64,000 bases of DNA from Methanosarcina vacuolata Z-761 (GTDB lineage Archaea; Halobacteriota; Methanosarcinia; Methanosarcinales; Methanosarcinaceae). Below, piece by piece: positions 35,976 to 44,329 of the stretch. Position 1 is the first letter of the stretch. The number at the start of each line of letters is the position of its first letter. A program made the position numbers and the translations under genes. Under the pieces are notes generated by a model that was not told the DNA's origin, searched no databases, and saw only the letters and a program-made list of their open reading frames with translations. Location of the stretch: NCBI RefSeq assembly GCF_000969905.1, contig NZ_CP009520.1:62001-126000 (forward strand), given 5' to 3'.

Positions 35976-36731
35976 CTACTTACTCTTATTTTTTAAGGTC
36001 GCCATAATGTCTTCAGGTTCTTCAGTGTAGAATTCCAAACTTAAGTTTGATCGTGTAGTAATTTTAAGAATCTGTTGATAAGGCACTGTGAGTTCGAAGA
36101 TATAAAAATAAATAACAAGGACATATGCAACTATCCAGAAATCTACCATGACTGAGCTTAGTTTTATGAAAGCTGGAGCTGCTTCCATCTGCAAATCTCT
36201 GGTTATATTTTCTACGATATGAGGCAGTTGAATTACAAGGGTAGCAAGGGCTAACAAACGCAGTGGCCAACGCAGGGAACGGCCTTTGTTCTTTGATATA
36301 GTGTTCGTCACGATATTCTCTTTCCTTAACACGAGGGATCTGAACAGATGCCGGCGAATAATTATTTTTTCAGGAGTCAACAACACAGTAGTATGATTAT
36401 AAAGAATAAAAGCCAAAAAAGCCAGATAGGGGATTAAGGAAGAAAAGAGATCGAAAAAAGAGCCTGCAGGACTATATAATCCCAAAATTAAACTGATTAC
36501 TAACGATGTACCGATAATTTTTCCAATTCCGTAGCCTCTATACAGGCCCCGTCCTTTCAGAACCTCACCTTCTTGCATACTTGCAGGAGAATGTACTGGT
36601 TGGCCCAGCTTTTCCAGTCCAAAACTATAACAGCCGCCTTCCTTCCTTTCTTTTTGGATAGAATCCTCCATAGGGCACCATCCCATCAATTTTCTAAAAT
36701 ATTTTACCAAAATCATTTCATAAGCCTTCAA
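35976..36731 (-). CDS. DUF1673-type membrane protein, array member 9 (last)
   Basis: A 251-residue membrane protein and the distal member of the nine-gene array. The N-terminus keeps the family motif (YFRKLMGWCP). Two hydrophobic stretches (about 73-112), a central TPEKIIIRRHLFRSLVLRKENI segment that looks like part of a bacterial PH-like beta domain, then two or three more membrane segments (about 155-215) and a charged tail ending in TEEPEDIMATLKNKSK. It forms a subgroup with member 8 (same central and tail segments). Its ATG overlaps the stop of member 8 by four bases. Function unknown. Confidence 0.75.
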   Translation of the reverse strand: MKAYEMILVKYFRKLMGWCPMEDSIQKERKEGGCYSFGLEKLGQPVHSPASMQEGEVLKGRGLYRGYGIGKIIGTSLVISLILGLYSPAGSFFDLFSSLIPYLAFLAFILYNHTTVLLTPEKIIIRRHLFRSLVLRKENIVTNTISKNKGRSLRWPLRLLALATLVIQLPHIVENITRDLQMEAAPAFIKLSSVMVDFWIVAYVLVIYFYIFELTVPYQQILKITTRSNLSLEFYTEEPEDIMATLKNKSK

Positions 36732-37519
36732 AACGTTTTTATTTCATTTTGATCCCTTTCGTTTTTGAGGAAACTTGTAAGCTCTTCAGGTTTATTAGTA
36801 AAAAACGTAATTTCCAGTTTTGAGTGAGTAGTAACTTTAAGGGCCCACTGATAAGGCGTTAAGAGTTCGGCATTGTAAAATGCCACAAGTAGAATTGTTA
36901 CTGTTGCAATATGTCCCAGAAATAGACTAAGATCAACATAGTTTGAAAGTAATCCTTCAATATATTCAACATATTCAATATATTGCGAGTTCCTTGGCAT
37001 CCCTTCTATAAAGTAGATTGGTATTAAAACTACACAAAACAAACGGGATAGCCATCGTAATGAATGATTATAATTTTTCGTTGTCGAGATTTGAATGATA
37101 TCCTCTTTTTCAATCACAATAGGCTTAAGCAGAGGCTTTTTGATTCTGATTTCCCCAGGTGTTACTGTGACAGCATCGGGGCGATTAAGAAGAAATATTA
37201 TAGGCAGAAAGAACTTAACAAGGCCTGAAAATATAATCAAATAAGAGTCTTCAGGAGTATATGCCCATAAAAGCGAGGAGGCTATTAATGTGGAAAAAAC
37301 GATTATTAAAACCCGCAATAACCACCACCAGTCAAAGAGACTGGCTTGCACTTTAAGAGTTCTGTTTTCCTGGAGATCTGCGGGAGAGGAGCTTAATTGA
37401 ATATTTCCATTTCCCCATTTAAAATCCGGGAGGCAACCTTCCTGCATTTGATTCTGGAGGGAGTTTTTTGTCGGGCACCATCCTATCAGCTTTTCTATGT
37501 ATCTGGACTCCCGGCTCAT
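36728..37519 (-). CDS. DUF1673-type membrane protein, array member 8
   Basis: A 263-residue paralog of member 9, with the motif as KLIGWCPTKNS, membrane segments near 70-110 and 160-225, a central TPGEIRIKKPLLKPIVIEKEDIIQI stretch, and the tail TNKPEELTSFLKNERDQ. Four-base ATGA overlaps join it to both neighbours. The substitution LIGWCP for LMGWCP is one of the few changes in the motif. Function unknown. Confidence 0.75.
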   Translation of the reverse strand: MSRESRYIEKLIGWCPTKNSLQNQMQEGCLPDFKWGNGNIQLSSSPADLQENRTLKVQASLFDWWWLLRVLIIVFSTLIASSLLWAYTPEDSYLIIFSGLVKFFLPIIFLLNRPDAVTVTPGEIRIKKPLLKPIVIEKEDIIQISTTKNYNHSLRWLSRLFCVVLIPIYFIEGMPRNSQYIEYVEYIEGLLSNYVDLSLFLGHIATVTILLVAFYNAELLTPYQWALKVTTHSKLEITFFTNKPEELTSFLKNERDQNEIKTF

Positions 37520-38139
37520 AGTTCTTCATCCTTTTCTCCAAGGACATACAACTTTTGCTGTCCCTTTTCTCTTTTCATGTACATTTTCATATGGTTTTTC
37601 TTCTCCCAGTAAATTAGCTGGAAATAGAATCCCCACATCAGAATCAGGGTTCCTGAAGTGAAAGAGTACAGTGCCTGATCGTTAAAAAGATAAGCTGCAT
37701 AAGACGAGATATAGGGCAATAAAGCCATGAGCAAAGTGAAACCCAAAAATAGGAATAAGATCACGCAGGCAAAAGTTCTTCTAAAGGAAGGAGAAACGAC
37801 AGGATTTCTTTTCACGGCATCGTATTGACGCATCTGTTTTTTCCAGCCGAGCAAATAGATCGGTAAAGAAAGTGAAAGGCCAAGAAGGAAAGCCTCTGTA
37901 TTTACACCTTTTTGAAATAAGTTTATATAAATATAAATAAAGATAATTGGTAGCAAGAGGAGTTGGTTATCAAGCCTGGAATGCTGTTTAGGAATATTAT
38001 TCAGACTTCTTGTCTTTTCTCCTCCGGACTGGTCATTTGCTGCAAAATTAGCAGAGCTAATTCGGGTTTCAGGTTCAAGTGCTTTTGCATTCGGGCACCA
38101 TCCCATAAGCTTTTTTATGTTTTCAACTCTAAGGCTCAC
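37516..38139 (-). CDS. DUF1673-type membrane protein, array member 7
   Basis: A 207-residue member of the middle subgroup (members 3-7). It starts MSLRVENIKKLMGWCPNAKA, has a variable polar region to about residue 55, two membrane segments, the loop KKQMRQYDAVKRNPVVSPS, two more membrane segments, and a tail YWEKKNHMKMYMKREKGQQKLYVLGEKDEEL. Overlaps both neighbours by ATGA. Function unknown. Confidence 0.8.
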   Translation of the reverse strand: MSLRVENIKKLMGWCPNAKALEPETRISSANFAANDQSGGEKTRSLNNIPKQHSRLDNQLLLLPIIFIYIYINLFQKGVNTEAFLLGLSLSLPIYLLGWKKQMRQYDAVKRNPVVSPSFRRTFACVILFLFLGFTLLMALLPYISSYAAYLFNDQALYSFTSGTLILMWGFYFQLIYWEKKNHMKMYMKREKGQQKLYVLGEKDEEL

Positions 38140-38738
38140 ATTTCTTCCTCCTTTTCCCCAATAGCATATGCCTTTTGGAAGCCATTTTCACTTTTAATAT
38201 AAATTCTCATGTGGTTTTTCTTTTCCCAGTGAATTAGCTGAAAATAAAAACCCCACATGAAAAAACAAAGAATTGAAAGTCCGAATAAGGCCAAGTGCCA
38301 GGATTGTATTATCATATAAGTGAGCAACATCATCGGAGCAATAAAAACTATGATTATCAAAAAAATCCAAAGATATGATAATTTAGAGATATAACGGACA
38401 ATAGGCTTTTTCGCAACGTCGTTGAACCGCTGAATCCGCTCATTCCAGTGAAATACAAAATAAAATAAGGGAGGTAATGGTGCAAAAAGGGATGGGAGAA
38501 GGCCCATGTGATTGTATATAAGGAAATGAACAAATGTTAAAAAAATAGCAAATAGAAGAATTTGATTGCTTTCTCTCTGGAGCCATCCAGGATTCTTTAA
38601 ACAGCTGTTATCTCCCCTTGCCCTGTCCGGAACATTGGAATCAAAATTTTCAAGGTCAATATTCCTTCTAGCTTCATATGCTTTTGCATTTGGGCACCAA
38701 CCCATTAGCTTTTTTATGTATTCGACTTTAAGGCTCAT
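38136..38738 (-). CDS. DUF1673-type membrane protein, array member 6
   Basis: A 200-residue paralog, closest to member 5: the two share an almost identical opening (MSLKVEYIKKLMGWCPNAKA) and the same PDRARG/LKxPGWLxxESNQILLF region. Four membrane segments are visible and the loop reads ERIQRFNDVAKKPIVRYISK. The tail is YWEKKNHMRIYIKSENGFQK-like with a terminal acidic EKEEEM. ATGA overlaps on both sides. It appears to be a recent duplicate of member 5. Confidence 0.8.
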   Translation of the reverse strand: MSLKVEYIKKLMGWCPNAKAYEARRNIDLENFDSNVPDRARGDNSCLKNPGWLQRESNQILLFAIFLTFVHFLIYNHMGLLPSLFAPLPPLFYFVFHWNERIQRFNDVAKKPIVRYISKLSYLWIFLIIIVFIAPMMLLTYMIIQSWHLALFGLSILCFFMWGFYFQLIHWEKKNHMRIYIKSENGFQKAYAIGEKEEEM

Positions 38739-39355
38739 ATTTCTTCCTCCTTTTTCCCAAGAGCATATGTTTTTTGGAAGCCATTTTCAAATATTATACA
38801 AATTTTCATGTGATTTTTCATCTCCCAGTAAATTAACTGGAAATAAAAGCCCCACATAAAGAACCAAAGAATTGAAATATAAAATATCGGTATCGATTGA
38901 CTGCCAAAGTTGAATATGTAAGAGAGAACTATAAGAAGAGATGTGAATAGAATAGTAAAAATTATGAATAGTAAACCTGGAAGATATTTTTCTTTAGAGC
39001 CATAACGAGTAATAGGTTTTCTCGCAATGTCGTTGTATCGCTGCATTTGCTTATTCCAGCGTAATACTAACTGAGATAGGGCCACTAAAAATCCAGCAAG
39101 TAAATAGAGCAGGTTCAGATCTATCAGATTAATCATCAGGAGATACACAAACGTTAAAAAAATATCAAATAGAAGAATTTGATTACTTTCTTTCCGGAGC
39201 CATCCAGGGTCCTTTAAATCTCCATTTTCTCCCCTTGCTCTGTCCGGAATATCGGAATCAAAACTTTCAAGATGAGCGTGCTGTCTGGCTTCATATGCTT
39301 TTGCATTTGGGCACCAACCCATTAGCTTTTTTATGTATTCAACTTTAAGGCTCAT
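38735..39355 (-). CDS. DUF1673-type membrane protein, array member 5
   Basis: A 206-residue paralog with four membrane segments, loop NKQMQRYNDIARKPITRYGSK, and a shortened tail (YWEMKNHMKICIIFENGFQK). The first 75 residues match member 6 closely, the later ones less so, suggesting duplication followed by uneven divergence or exchange. Overlaps neighbours by ATGA. Confidence 0.8.
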   Translation of the reverse strand: MSLKVEYIKKLMGWCPNAKAYEARQHAHLESFDSDIPDRARGENGDLKDPGWLRKESNQILLFDIFLTFVYLLMINLIDLNLLYLLAGFLVALSQLVLRWNKQMQRYNDIARKPITRYGSKEKYLPGLLFIIFTILFTSLLIVLSYIFNFGSQSIPIFYISILWFFMWGFYFQLIYWEMKNHMKICIIFENGFQKTYALGKKEEEI

Positions 39356-39969
39356 ATTTCTTCCTCTTCTTCCCCGATAGCATATGTTTTTTGGAAGCCA
39401 TTTTCATTTTTGATATGAATTATCATGTGATTTTTTTTCTCCCAGTAAAATAGCTGAAGACAGGTTCCCCACATAGTAAGAATCCAGGTTGCTGCAATAA
39501 AAGAATACATTGATTGAGAGTTAATAGAAGAAGGCGTGTTAGACAAGAAAACTATAGGTGGGAAACTCAAAAACAAAATTAGGGATAAGAAAACAAAGAA
39601 GAGTACTATTTTAGAGACATAACGAACAGTGGTTTTTTTTGCGGCAGCATCGTACTCACGTATCTGATTTTTCCAGAAAAGTAAATTTATCAGCAAAGAA
39701 AACAAAATGCCCAAAAAGAATAAATCAAAATTTACACCCTTTACTAATAGCATAACTGTGTAAACAGGAGTTAAGAAAAGTGTTGGTAAGAGTAGTCTGA
39801 CATCAAGCCTGGAAAAACGGCTAAGAGCCATCGGAATCCTGACTTTTTCTCCTCGAGGTTGATCATATGCTTCAAAATTAACAGGGCTAACTCTAGATCC
39901 GGTTTCAATTGTTTTTGCATTCGGGCACCATCCCATTAGCTTTCTAATGTATTTTGCTTCCCAATTCAT
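39352..39969 (-). CDS. DUF1673-type membrane protein, array member 4
   Basis: A 205-residue paralog beginning MNWEAKYIRKLMGWCPNAK, with the polar region containing NFEAYDQPRGEK, membrane segments near 55-95 and 118-170, the loop KNQIREYDAAAKKTTVRYVSK, and tail YWEKKNHMIIHIKNENGFQK. Overlaps both neighbours by ATGA. Function unknown. Confidence 0.8.
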   Translation of the reverse strand: MNWEAKYIRKLMGWCPNAKTIETGSRVSPVNFEAYDQPRGEKVRIPMALSRFSRLDVRLLLPTLFLTPVYTVMLLVKGVNFDLFFLGILFSLLINLLFWKNQIREYDAAAKKTTVRYVSKIVLFFVFLSLILFLSFPPIVFLSNTPSSINSQSMYSFIAATWILTMWGTCLQLFYWEKKNHMIIHIKNENGFQKTYAIGEEEEEI

Positions 39970-40583
39970 GACTCTCCCTCCTTTTCCCCAATAGCATACA
40001 TCTTTTGGAATCCCTTTTCACTTTTCACATAAATTTTCATATGACTTTTTCTTTCCCAGTAAATTAACTGAAGATAACTTCCCCATAACAGAATCAAAGC
40101 CCCTACAGTTAAGGAATACATTGACTGAGCGTTAAGAAAAGAGGGTATCTGAGATAAGAAGACCATAGGCAAAATTAAGAACAAGATTAGGACTAAGAAA
40201 ACCCATAAGAGCGTTTTCTTTGAGGAAGAGCGAACAATGGATTTTTTTGCCAGGGAATCGTAATGATGCATCTGCTTTTTCCAGCCGAGCAGGTAAATCA
40301 GCAGAGAAAGTAAAAAACCTAAAAAGAGAGCTTCTGCATTTATACCTTTTTGAAATAGCAAATTTATGTAAACAAGAGTTAGGAATAATGTTGGTAAGAG
40401 AATTCGGATATCAAATCTGGAAAAAAGCCTGGAAATACGACTTGCAATCTCTGGATTCCTGTCTTTTTCTCCTCCAGATTGACCATATAATTCAAAATTA
40501 GTAGGGATAATTCGAGATCCGGTTTCAAGTGTTTTTACATTCGGACACCATCCCATCAGTTTCTTGATGTATTCCAGAGTCAT
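39966..40583 (-). CDS. DUF1673-type membrane protein, array member 3
   Basis: A 205-residue paralog beginning MTLEYIKKLMGWCPNVK, with NFELYGQSGGEKDRNPE, four membrane segments, loop KKQMHHYDSLAKKSIVRSSSK, and tail YWERKSHMKIYVKSEKGFQK. A 13-base gap with ggag separates it from member 2; from here downstream every gene start overlaps the previous stop. Function unknown. Confidence 0.8.
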   Translation of the reverse strand: MTLEYIKKLMGWCPNVKTLETGSRIIPTNFELYGQSGGEKDRNPEIASRISRLFSRFDIRILLPTLFLTLVYINLLFQKGINAEALFLGFLLSLLIYLLGWKKQMHHYDSLAKKSIVRSSSKKTLLWVFLVLILFLILPMVFLSQIPSFLNAQSMYSLTVGALILLWGSYLQLIYWERKSHMKIYVKSEKGFQKMYAIGEKEGES

Positions 40584-40596
40584 AGCATCTCTCCGT

Positions 40597-41298
40597 TTAT
40601 TTATTTACAATGTAGACTCCCGGCATTTTGCGCCCGTACACAATGATTATTTTCCCATTCCTTTTTTCCCAGTACATATCTGTAAGGTAATACAGAAAAG
40701 CCGTCAAACAAAAGCCAGATAGAAATGCTATAATGTATTTCCAGCCAAGAAATGAACTTAAGCCGAGAAGCACTACTAAGCCAGTTGAATCAAAATTAAA
40801 ATAATAAAACAAAGCTATCAAACAAAAGGCAGAAATAAAAAACAAAATGAGTCCCCAATTAAACTGTGAAAAAAAGAGATACAGTAGTACCAGGGAAAGT
40901 AGTAGATTTATAATTCTCCATTTTGGAGATACAATATTCTTCTTTATTTTCTTGCCTGTGTTTTTTATTTTATTCAAGAAATGCCAGTTCCAGATGCACA
41001 AGAGCAGGTTAAAAATGGTTCCGATAGTTAACCCAAATATGAAACCTTTATCCATAGGATGAATGCCCAGAAATCCAATTCCCAATACAGAAAAAAGAGT
41101 CAATCCAGAGGATATTACTAATGCTCTATTATGGCGTTTGTTCCACCAACCAGTGGGTAAAACCGGAAGACTTCCAGCATCTCTCCCTTTAGCTTGGTCA
41201 CTGGCTTCAAAATATTTAGAATGGATGGAATGTTGAGTTTCAAGCATTTTTGCATTCGGGCACCATCCCATCAGTTTCTTGATGTATTCCAGAGTCAT
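40597..41298 (-). CDS. DUF1673-type membrane protein, array member 2
   Basis: About 233 residues. The ATG at 41298 (MTLEYIKKLMGWCPNAKMLE) is chosen because it matches the other members and gives the same 13-base gap as between members 2 and 3; an ATG at 41319 would add seven residues and overlap member 1. It belongs with member 1: both share HxxYFEAxxQxxGxDA, PxGWWNxRHNRxL and WNWHFLNKIKN. It has more membrane segments than the middle group (about six), as the interior repeats a LLLSLVLLYLFF-type stretch. The tail is short and lacks the KNHM motif. Confidence 0.78.
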   Translation of the reverse strand: MTLEYIKKLMGWCPNAKMLETQHSIHSKYFEASDQAKGRDAGSLPVLPTGWWNKRHNRALVISSGLTLFSVLGIGFLGIHPMDKGFIFGLTIGTIFNLLLCIWNWHFLNKIKNTGKKIKKNIVSPKWRIINLLLSLVLLYLFFSQFNWGLILFFISAFCLIALFYYFNFDSTGLVVLLGLSSFLGWKYIIAFLSGFCLTAFLYYLTDMYWEKRNGKIIIVYGRKMPGVYIVNK

Positions 41299-41311
41299 GT
41301 GTCCATTCCAT

Positions 41312-41893
41312 TCATGCATTTACAATGTAGATATCTGGCATGTAACTCCCTTCCAGAAGCACAATTTTTTCGTTTTTCTTTTCCCAGTATACATCTGTAA
41401 GGTAATACAGAAAAGTTGTCAAACAAAAACCGGAAATAAATGCCAAAACAACTCTCCAGCCAACCAGTGAAGACTGTGTAAGCAGCGTTGTAAGGCCTAA
41501 TAACCCAGATATGACTATCAATTTATTTTTTGTCTGAACTCTTTTGCTGGAGTTTTTTATTTTATTCAAAAAATGCCAGTTCCAGATGCAAAGAGGCAGG
41601 TTAAAGATAGTTCCGATAATTAACCCAAATATGAAACTTTCATCTCTGAGATGCACCCCAAAAAATCCAATTCCCAACAAAGATACAAGAGTCAACCCTG
41701 AGGACACCATTAAGGTCCTGTTATGGCGTCTGTTCCACCAGCCGGAGGGTAAAGGCGAATTTGCGGCATCTTTTCCTCTGGACTGGTTGTTCGCTTCAAA
41801 ATATTCAGGGTGGATGACATTTTGAGTTTCAATCGTTTTTGCGTTTGGACACCACCCCATAAGCTTCCTTATACTTTTTGTGAATACGTCCAT
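41312..41893 (-). CDS. DUF1673-type membrane protein, array member 1
   Basis: A 193-residue protein, the first membrane gene after the regulator, 40 bp downstream of it. It begins MDVFTKSIRKLMGWCPNAK and shares its middle with member 2 (SGWWNRRHNRTLMVSSGLTL, LCIWNWHFLNKIKN). About four membrane segments; tail YWEKKNEKIVLLEGSYMPDIYIV. Function unknown. Confidence 0.8.
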   Translation of the reverse strand: MDVFTKSIRKLMGWCPNAKTIETQNVIHPEYFEANNQSRGKDAANSPLPSGWWNRRHNRTLMVSSGLTLVSLLGIGFFGVHLRDESFIFGLIIGTIFNLPLCIWNWHFLNKIKNSSKRVQTKNKLIVISGLLGLTTLLTQSSLVGWRVVLAFISGFCLTTFLYYLTDVYWEKKNEKIVLLEGSYMPDIYIVNA

Positions 41894-41933
41894 CTTTAAC
41901 CCTTCACTTAATTTTACCTGCCTTTAGTCAGGC

Positions 41934-42383
41934 CTATTCAATCGATTCTTTTAATTTCTCAAATAATTCATCAGCTATCTTTGTGGGATCTTCCGTACTC
42001 TGGAGTTTGAGCTGCATCTCTTCTGCAAAGTCCCAGAGAAGTTCAATGCATTCCCTGTACCTCTCGCAAGACCCGCATTCACCTTCGTGTTCGTACCAGA
42101 CTTGCATTCCGTGTTTTGCCGAGACAAAGATTATTGCGTTGGCTTTGAAAGGGACCGATTTTCCAAAGAGTATCCCCTTTTTTGAGTCAAGTTTTTCTAC
42201 TTCGATCCTGTTTGCACTGGCCATTTCAAGCAGGGTTTCTTCAATGCGTTTATCCATACTAAGAAGGGCTCGCGAGACCGCCTGCCTGGAGACCCCGAAA
42301 CGTTTTGCGATATTGATATTCGGAAGCCCGTTTCGGCGCAGAACCCAGAATTCAAACTGTTTTTCACCTGCTGGAAGAAACAT
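41934..42383 (-). CDS. Helix-turn-helix regulator with Cys3 motif, heading the DUF1673 array
   Basis: A 149-residue likely transcription factor. Residues 1-45 form a helix-turn-helix (QFEFWVLRRNGLPNINIAKRFGVSRQAVSRAL, similar to sigma-70 region 4/resolvase types). The middle (60-97) is a small beta region and residues 103-112 hold Cys103-x2-Cys106-x5-Cys112 in GECGSCERYREC, a possible metal or Fe-S site, followed by a helical tail. It lies 40 bp upstream of array member 1 on the same strand, so regulator and membrane genes probably share a promoter near 42400. A damaged second copy lies at 43103-43303. Function of the target system is unknown. Confidence 0.75.
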   Translation of the reverse strand: MFLPAGEKQFEFWVLRRNGLPNINIAKRFGVSRQAVSRALLSMDKRIEETLLEMASANRIEVEKLDSKKGILFGKSVPFKANAIIFVSAKHGMQVWYEHEGECGSCERYRECIELLWDFAEEMQLKLQSTEDPTKIADELFEKLKESIE

Positions 42384-42418
42384 ATGTAAACATCTGAACG
42401 TTGACTATATATAACTTT
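42381..42418 (-). promoter_or_regulatory. Promoter and operator-like sequence of the regulator operon
   Basis: On the minus strand a TATA box-like ttatatat (about 42405-42413) lies some 25-30 bp before the start, and around the start codon the sequence catatgtaaacatctg (42381-42396) is an imperfect version of the palindrome found at the duplicate copy (43298-43313). Autoregulation is inferred. Confidence 0.4.
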
Positions 42419-42637: not shown

Positions 42638-43054
42638 ATGCAAAAAGATAGTGATTTTGAAATAAATCCTGAAGTTATATATTTTTCTGAAGACTCAATA
42701 GCCGAAAATGAAAACGAAAAAAATAAGAAAGAAACTGAAGAATTTGAAGCCCAAGCTGCAGCATCTATTGATTCCAGAACCTATGAACACTCTTCTTTTT
42801 TTCTCGGTATACCTTTGATTATTATTATTGGGGGTATAAGAAGCAGTTATGAAAGTGTTTTCTCCATTGAATATAAAGGAAAAAACGTAGTTGTACTATA
42901 CAATGGTATCTGCCTTGTCTCAGTAGCGGACAGACTTTTTATTCACGGAAAATGGGACAAGGGAAAAAGGCTCGGAATACAGGGAAATGTCGTTGTTGCG
43001 GACAGAATTGAAAATTTGAGTTCTGGGCTTGTCTTCAGTCATGACAGTCAATGA
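42638..43054 (+). CDS. Short membrane-associated protein A, divergent from the regulator operon
   Basis: A 138-residue protein, no family recognised. The first 45 residues are highly acidic and polar; a hydrophobic segment follows (FFLGIPLIIIIGGI, about 52-66), then a beta-rich C-terminal region ending in HGKWDKGKRLGIQGNVVVADRIENLSS. That end looks like a small beta-barrel (OB-like) module. The last 80 bp of similarity are identical in DNA to the gene at 43799. Transcribed away from the regulator, possibly from a shared control region. Confidence 0.65.
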   Translation: MQKDSDFEINPEVIYFSEDSIAENENEKNKKETEEFEAQAAASIDSRTYEHSSFFLGIPLIIIIGGIRSSYESVFSIEYKGKNVVVLYNGICLVSVADRLFIHGKWDKGKRLGIQGNVVVADRIENLSSGLVFSHDSQ

Positions 43055-43102: not shown

Positions 43103-43303
43103 ATGAATTTGCTTTCGACTTCAATCCTGTTTGCCCTGGCCATCTCAAGCAGATTTCTTCGATGCGCTATTTATACTAAGAAAGGCTCGCGAGACCGCCT
43201 GCCTGGAGACCCCGAAACGTTTTGCGATATTGATATTCGGGAGCCCGTTTCGGCGCAGAACCCAGAATTCAAACTGTTTTTCACCTGCTGGAAGAAACAC
43301 ATG
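43103..43303 (-). pseudogene. Truncated copy of the helix-turn-helix regulator
   Basis: Aligned with 42188-42383, this copy keeps the first 43 or so residues (FLPAGEKQFEFWVLRRNGLPN through the helix-turn-helix) nearly unchanged, then diverges, frameshifts and stops without the beta region or the Cys3 motif. The start codon is GTG instead of ATG. The upstream promoter region is also conserved, so it may still be transcribed and could make a short DNA-binding peptide. Confidence 0.7.
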
Positions 43304-43313
43304 TAAACATGTG
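43298..43313. promoter_or_regulatory. Perfect palindrome at the start of the truncated regulator
   Basis: cacatgtaaacatgtg is a perfect inverted repeat with 7-bp arms and a 2-bp centre. It spans the start codon of the truncated regulator and lies beside a TATA-like tttatataac (about 43323-43332). A weaker version stands at 42381-42396. Probably the regulator's binding site, by inference. Confidence 0.5.
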
Positions 43314-43798
43314 AATGTTGACTTTATATAACTTCCTCTCTCATTAACTTTGTTGAGTCTCTTTAATGAAAATTTTTGCCAGATGAAGAAATCCTGAAGT
43401 TTTGTTAAGAATAGATTGAAGATCTGGTCATAAAACATATATAGAATAACATTAAAATTTATTCACAAATATAACTATTTATTGAATAATATAAAATTTG
43501 AATTCGATGTTATGGTACTATAAGTTCGAAGTTGAGGATTTATTTAGGTCTTGATATGCCGAAGAAATTATTCAGAATAAATTTAGAGATCCTGTTTCTT
43601 TTGGAAGATTCCCGAAAACTGGTGCAGACTCTCTCCAATGTTAAACTCTCTATAAATCCTGCACTTCCAAAAGTGACTGAACGCGGTGTTGCTCAATCTG
43701 TTCAAAATATGTAGGGCTGATGATCTCTGCGTTTTTAGGACTGATTCGCTTTTATATTGCTAGTAAATGGAATAAAAGTACAGAACTAAGTTTTAAGA
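43314..43798. other. Spacer between the truncated regulator and protein B
   Basis: AT-rich. A 60-codon open frame at 43532-43714 (including MPKKLFRINLEILFLLEDSRK) has no convincing ribosome-binding site and no recognisable family; not called as a gene. Confidence 0.4.
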
Positions 43799-44329
43799 GT
43801 GATAAATGTGACTAGAATATCAAATTCTCTCGTGATCGGGGTAATTGTAGTATTTATTGTAGGAACCATACTTTTTTATTCATATTCCGTAGGCCAGCTA
43901 CTCTGGGGCATTATAGCTGCGGGGATGATTATTCTGATTGCAGTTATGCTACTTTTTTTGCCGCTTATCACAGACCCTTTGAACTCATCCGGTTACAGGG
44001 GAAATGAGAAATCCGAATCTTTTGGCGTTGAATCTATATGTCTAGGCGATTCCATAGTTTATGAAAGACCATTTTTCTTCATCGGCTTGCCTTTCATTAT
44101 AATTGCTCTAGGAGGTATATTTTCTAAATACGAAAGTATATTTTCTATAGCATATGAGAGTGGAACAACATTGGTTCTATATCATGGAGTCTGTTTTGTT
44201 TTAAAAGACGACAAACTTAGCATTAGGGGTAAATGGTACAGGGGAAAAAGGCTCGGAATACAGGGAAATGTCGTTGTTGCGGACAGAATTGAAAATTTGA
44301 GTTCTGGGCTTGTCTTCAGTCGTAAATGA
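43799..44329 (+). CDS. Short membrane protein B, paralog of the protein at 42638
   Basis: About 176 residues from a GTG start. It begins with two membrane segments (SLVIGVIVVFIVGTILFYSYS and LLWGIIAAGMIILIAVMLLF) that protein A lacks, then a polar part, a third hydrophobic segment (FFIGLPFIIIALGGIF) and the shared C-terminal module IRGKWYRGKRLGIQGNVVVADRIENLSSGLVFS. So protein A looks like a shortened version or a different fusion of the same C-terminal domain. Function unknown. Confidence 0.6.
   Translation: MINVTRISNSLVIGVIVVFIVGTILFYSYSVGQLLWGIIAAGMIILIAVMLLFLPLITDPLNSSGYRGNEKSESFGVESICLGDSIVYERPFFFIGLPFIIIALGGIFSKYESIFSIAYESGTTLVLYHGVCFVLKDDKLSIRGKWYRGKRLGIQGNVVVADRIENLSSGLVFSRK
44242..44321 (+). 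repeat. 80-bp block identical to 42961-43040
   Basis: From gggaaaaaggctcggaatac to gtcttcagtc the two loci are the same base for base over 80 bp, while the upstream parts of the two genes have diverged. This suggests recent copying or gene conversion of the C-terminal module. Confidence 0.9.

Follow-up and report, generated by a model that had tools for sequence, protein, structure and literature searches.

The gene array at positions 35976–42383 of the DNA analysed here raises the question of what joins one small regulator to nine membrane proteins, and which of these parts stay constant when the array is compared across genomes. The window, that is, the whole stretch analysed, comprises 64,000 nucleotides of Methanosarcina vacuolata Z-761 (NCBI RefSeq assembly GCF_000969905.1, contig NZ_CP009520.1, positions 62,001 to 126,000), and all coordinates refer to it unless another locus is named. 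An initial annotation made from the letters alone had proposed ten minus-strand open reading frames (ORFs) in this array, and all of them were found: a gene for a helix-turn-helix (HTH) regulator, here named R, followed by nine genes of the DUF1673 family, m1–m9. The constant parts are R, an operator and an N-terminal tag with the residues GWCP. The DUF1673 body is not constant and is just one of several bodies that occur under R, a point that the initial annotation missed.

The linkage of R to these proteins was evaluated by genome searches. Separate searches of 112 genomes at the family level for R and for DUF1673 returned an identical set of 44 genomes. At the order level, R was present in 72 of the 74 genomes with DUF1673, the exceptions being one incomplete metagenome-assembled genome and one weak match. 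R stood directly upstream and on the same strand in every array read, as the initial annotation had expected. In addition, 80 named loci were compared across the phylum, spanning Methanosarcina, Methanococcoides, Methanolobus, Methanoperedens, other ANME-2 (anaerobic methanotrophic archaea), Methanoculleus, Methanoregula, Methanolinea, Methanospirillum and Archaeoglobales. Among the 66 loci with at least 3 kb of sequence after R, 61 had a GWCP-tagged ORF at most 3 kb downstream of it and on the same strand; one locus had such an ORF upstream, and none had one on the opposite strand.

The common part of the proteins that follow R is the tag I(R/K)KxMGWCP, which occupies about 17–20 N-terminal residues and appears to form a short amphipathic helix ahead of GWCP, whereas the bodies behind it differ. 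All nine members of the window carry this start. The exclusiveness of the pairing was assessed by scanning 31 Methanosarcina genomes for 14-mers coding for MGWCP, with the reversed pattern as a control. All 146 sites lay in R arrays or at satellites or relics of R; there were none in the five Methanosarcina genomes without R, and the reversed pattern gave none.

The bodies found under tag and R comprised DUF1673, a split-PH type, Yip1 (E 4e-16 and 1.3e-19), SdpI/DUF1648 (E 6.6e-18 and 1.3e-17, at loci L184 and L202), a Wzx flippase (Polysacc_synt_3, E 3e-21) and other membrane bodies, including a PLDc_N-like protein (E 7e-7) and GPDPase_memb/DUF6159-like proteins. Tagged proteins of about 430 amino acids with a WWD motif resembled the AglB core, and the match to PF21436 (E 9e-4) was below the cut-off, so that an AglB/STT3 identity is only suggestive. 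In relatives of Methanoperedens, the R locus also contains STT3/AglB-like oligosaccharyltransferase genes (L161:3228-4967 and L150:9095-10834), and the 430-residue proteins, with or near such genes, possibly link the system to protein glycosylation. In two Methanoperedens-type loci, the neighbour of R is a true STT3 homologue. Two Methanosarcina species have a second R copy and, behind it, a tag–Wzx fusion whose ratio of nonsynonymous to synonymous substitution rates (dN/dS) is 0.25, indicating purifying selection. There, the tagged Wzx-type flippase (L086:5130-6746 and L087:5333-6943) lies beside a relocated intact R and an MsbA-like ATP-binding cassette (ABC) transporter, and the operator has drifted to GTCAATTTTGGTACGTTTAC. 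A tagged protein at L080 shares 68% identity over its body with a divergent neighbour that has no tag, which shows a route by which bodies could be captured.

Two further observations concern the tag itself. The last m8-type members of L072 and L092 read MRWHP in place of MGWCP, and the histidine replacing the cysteine is possibly another metal ligand at the same position. Moreover, the tag was considered as a heme-binding Cys-Pro motif. This is unlikely, since the tag also occurs in Methanomicrobiales, which to our knowledge lack cytochromes.

The control region of the operon was equally constant. A TATA box, TATATATA (42406–42413, minus strand), lies about 22 nt ahead of the R start codon and takes the same position in all 39 loci compared; because of this short distance, the operon mRNA is probably leaderless. 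The interval from the TATA box to the R start codon contains a palindrome, GTCAACGT-TCAG-ATGTTTAC (42386–42405), whose 20-bp consensus, GTMAACAT-N4-ATGTTKAC, was present at this place in 77 of the 80 loci. The palindrome is kept from Methanosarcina to Methanomicrobiales, but the surrounding DNA is not conserved. In genome scans, each of the 26 Methanosarcina genomes with the system had this operator at the array and the five without the system had none; the reversed pattern, used as a control, gave scattered single matches in Methanosarcina genomes. Further full-consensus sites in Methanosarcina each stood behind a TATA box, at relics of R or of R with a member. Since these sites are what remains of decayed R copies, the regulon of R is its own operon, which rules out R as a global regulator. 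The palindrome would cover the expected transcription start, the classic position of a repressor site, and the arrangement makes it very probable that R is an autorepressor dedicated to the operon that it heads. A single promoter for all ten genes, as the initial annotation had supposed, also appears likely, given one TATA box and palindrome before R only and the tight junctions behind it. A second intact operator (43303–43322) precedes a truncated R duplicate (43145–43300, minus strand), a pseudogene with 85% identity to R across the first 47 amino acids, and the two together (43145–43322) could serve as a decoy site.

R itself (41934–42383, minus strand) encodes 149 amino acids with an N-terminal HTH. 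The three cysteines pointed out in the initial annotation (C103, C106 and C112) were invariant in an alignment of 29 relatives, down to 53% identity, and so was an upstream histidine (H99), which is glutamine in one further locus. Together they form an HX3CX2CX5C site in the C-terminal half of the protein. The predicted structure consists of the HTH, a four-stranded sheet and two helices, mostly with a predicted local distance difference test (pLDDT) score above 85. We also considered a shared four-cysteine site, made of the three cysteines of R and that of the tag; this idea was weakened by the conservation of H99 alongside the three cysteines. MM2441 of M. mazei, a target of sRNA162 (PMC3510493), is a different gene, being of ArsR type and second in its operon.

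From the parts, their exclusive linkage, the position of the operator, the portability of the tag and the differing selection on R and members, we infer repression, a signal and a contact between tag and R as follows. R, probably a dimer, would bind the palindrome that separates the TATA box from the start codon, and would so block the leaderless operon to which it belongs. The remaining genes would supply membrane proteins with varied, fast-changing transmembrane (TM) bodies and one shared cytosolic N-terminal tag, the bodies acting as receptors for, and/or protectants against, something at the membrane, likeliest membrane stress or antagonists. The tag would inform R of the state of the body; the simplest way would be to retain R at the membrane, and the operon would thereby be turned on as required. 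The HX3CX2CX5C site probably binds metal or senses redox state and may join in the tag contact. We give this self-regulated membrane-response operon, taken as a whole, an even chance of being correct. That a single regulator is paired so strictly and exclusively with a single tag, on bodies otherwise unrelated, suggests that the tag is recognised by R or by a step acting on R, and our confidence that the tag acts on R falls a little short of even. More tentatively still, the system may represent one-component transmembrane signalling in archaea, in which a portable GWCP peptide makes any membrane protein an input of one regulator, and bodies captured by recombination onto the tag form an evolvable set of sensors or protectants in a single feedback loop.

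Several points weigh against this model. The co-occurrence counts are inflated by inherited linkage, as relatives are not independent. A few loci have R and the operator without a recognised tag; at L164 (ANME-2), R and operator lead after position 2094 straight into a MacB-type ABC transporter with no tagged protein, and two further loci carry MSWCP instead. Docking of the tag on R was not seen in an AlphaFold model of a single-chain R-TGA-D1 readthrough product (L091, 71-row alignment, no complex mode). In this readthrough model of R and a member, R folds well and pLDDT is below 50 in the region of the tag. Moreover, the three cysteines and the histidine of R would already provide four ligands, so the cysteine of the tag would not be needed for a metal site. 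Finally, SdpI bodies are rare (two of the 80 named loci).

The lack of docking in that model also fits another account, in which R, with its HX3CX2CX5C site, is a plain cytoplasmic redox or metal sensor that represses the operon until the metal or redox state shifts. The membrane proteins would then make up the response, by protecting the envelope or by transport, and the tag would help them to insert into the membrane or to assemble, without touching R. The invariance of the cysteines in the 29 regulators, the overlap of the operator with the start region and the resemblance of the tag to a short amphipathic helix before GWCP all agree with this account. It leaves unexplained, however, why the tag is absent away from R, why it is retained on unrelated bodies and why a tagged partner accompanies R even where the R copy has been relocated, and we regard it as somewhat unlikely. 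The neutral view, in which slippage and recombination expand genes mostly of no consequence in tandem and R is kept to silence them, draws on the variable copy number and the many truncated or frame-broken members. It is highly improbable in view of the purifying selection on the members and on the Wzx fusion, the near-invariant tag residues on unrelated bodies and the persistence of the system across methanogens, ANME archaea and Archaeoglobales.

A further proposal, compatible with the membrane-response model, is that the array constitutes a fast-evolving repertoire of defence or competition immunity against viruses, archaeocins or membrane-attacking toxins, with one agent per body, arms-race change in copy number and outer loops, and R limiting the cost. 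The number of members per genome, which runs from one to 16, their decay and turnover, the low conservation of the loop after TM3, the SdpI-type immunity bodies and the listing of DUF1673 among archaeal "dark matter island" families, in the DUF1673 passages of PMC4158269, are in line with it. Nevertheless, it seems distinctly unlikely: PADLOC returned no anti-phage defence family and only chance-level matches, R was found in none of 50,697 phage records and none of 72,556 plasmid records, the Methanosarcina array locus holds its place beside pyrI, and every dN/dS value was below 1.

Comparison with known systems separates what is new from what is on record. DUF1673 is catalogued as PF07895, arCOG06827 and supercluster SC.00027, and its expansion in Methanosarcina and the MGWCP motif appear, as a single line of a table and a single sentence, in the DUF1673 passages of PMC4158269 and PMC4390880; those same passages describe no regulator, operator, portable tag or function. 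The literature searched contained nothing on R, its operator, the exclusive R–tag linkage or tag portability, and these are the new elements here. All nine members of the window belong to DUF1673, with the difference that the tag here also heads bodies outside that family. The layout is shared with HAAS-PadR of bacterial envelope-stress contexts (PMC11237479), in which a cytosolic HAAS module, typically N-terminal, occurs on many unrelated multi-TM bodies, always beside a standalone HTH protein, and is proposed to pass membrane signals to PadR. Here, too, one module on varied TM bodies stands beside a standalone HTH gene, a likeness in working and not in membership: no PadR family was among the Pfam/NCBIfam matches of R, the tag is a GWCP peptide of about 17 residues instead of a helical HAAS domain with GxP, DUF1700, DUF1129 and DUF1048 had no match in the scanned tagged proteins, and this system is archaeal and forms tandem arrays.

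SdpI of Bacillus subtilis, a receptor and immunity protein, senses the SDP toxin and sequesters the autorepressor SdpR at the membrane (PMC1626106). As in that system, a (predicted) autorepressor gene is followed by a membrane protein gene under one promoter, and the tagged SdpI/DUF1648 proteins in the two R operons at L184 and L202 strengthen the comparison; the window members scanned gave no SdpI match. In contrast, R has no match of the SdpR (ArsR) type, its partners are varied and number up to 16, and no known toxin gene is present. EnfR of Thermococcus, of the Tfx family (as is Tfx of Methanothermobacter), binds a pseudo-palindrome in the promoter as a dimer (PMC10570040). R is similar in size with an N-terminal HTH, and the nearest Foldseek fold (8hno, E 0.17 only) and a weak profile match to TIGR00721 lead to this family; however, the profile score of 18.4 bits is under the cut-off of 60.25, and R differs by its HX3CX2CX5C site and by a 20-bp operator that immediately follows the TATA box. 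PspA, PspC and Toastrack of the phage-shock (PSP) response gave no Pfam match in the scanned members. We class the system as a probable membrane-coupled autorepressor, outside the HAAS-PadR, Sdp, Tfx and PSP systems.

The members of the window, all on the minus strand, were examined individually. The DUF1673 identity that the initial annotation had given was borne out by PF07895 scores of 46–195 bits for m1–m9 in a genome search (cut-off 30.4), which detected no other DUF1673 gene in the source genome. The division into subgroups 1-2, 3-7 and 8-9 also holds. The first subgroup consists of m1 (41312–41893, 193 amino acids, PF07895 E 1.9e-53), 40 nt behind R, and m2 (40597–41298, 233 amino acids, 1.5e-50; alternative longer start at 41319). 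The second contains m3 (39966–40583, 1.9e-46, GGAG ribosome-binding site), m4 (39352–39969, GGAGG inside m3), m5 (38735–39355, 2e-49), m6 (38136–38738) and m7 (37516–38139, GTG start), with m4, m6 and m7 assigned by the PF07895 genome search. The third comprises m8 (36728–37519, 6.2e-21) and m9 (35976–36731, 4.9e-12), which is of m8 type and starts at TTG or at an ATG about 15 nt further in. In the predicted model of m8 (pLDDT 78), a PH-like domain is interrupted by a two-helix TM hairpin, and the best PDB matches were PH folds (Foldseek probability 1.00, E only 0.05 or worse), which supports the PH-like segment suggested earlier for m8 and m9.

The claim that most genes are joined by four-base overlaps was accurate for "most", and "all" would be wrong. 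Four of the six overlaps are ATGA (m3/m4, m4/m5, m5/m6 and m7/m8), one is GTGA (m6/m7) and one is TTGA (m8/m9, provided that the TTG start of m9 is correct); the m1/m2 and m2/m3 junctions are not four-base overlaps. GGAGG-like ribosome-binding sites for m4–m7 sit within the preceding gene. Since nearly all junctions in about 38 arrays are −4 (ATGA/GTGA) or 0 (TAA|ATG), this pattern is not due to chance. Open frames of 416–422 and 554 amino acids that resembled fused paralogues proved to be in-frame neighbours with a stop codon between them (TAA in the checked pairs). A genuine tandem fusion was seen at L127:4420-5415, with 332 amino acids, two GWCP tags and two membrane parts.

Selection on R and the members differed. 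Against orthologues in four Methanosarcina species, dN/dS was 0.02–0.11 for R and 0.22–0.72 for tagged members. Within the DUF1673 type, mean identity was highest in the tag (0.64) and lowest in TM3 and the following loop (0.21–0.23). Loss of frame across strains, which the initial annotation had named as evidence against a maintained set, was observed in part: truncated or frame-broken members are frequent, one in G089 having six stops, and the surviving members are under purifying selection. The abundance of decayed members indicates fast turnover. In addition, m1 had a synonymous divergence (dS) of only 0.06 from its best match in L093, compared with 0.33 for the adjoining R, which suggests gene conversion or recent transfer. 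On the plus strand near R lie two related genes (42638–43054 and 43799–44329) with 55–64% identity to each other in their C-terminal portions. Many Methanosarcina have a divergent homologue upstream of R, and no family was found for the gene at 42638–43054.

Two-component systems are few in many archaeal lineages, and little has been established on how events at the membrane reach the transcription machinery in archaea. If the membrane-response model is correct, this system would be a widespread means of such coupling among methanogens, ANME archaea and Archaeoglobales, with parts unrelated to those of bacterial HAAS-PadR and SdpR-SdpI, and it would provide the expanded "dark matter" family DUF1673 with a role. 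As operator, tag and regulator are all defined, the model is directly testable in genetically tractable Methanosarcina.

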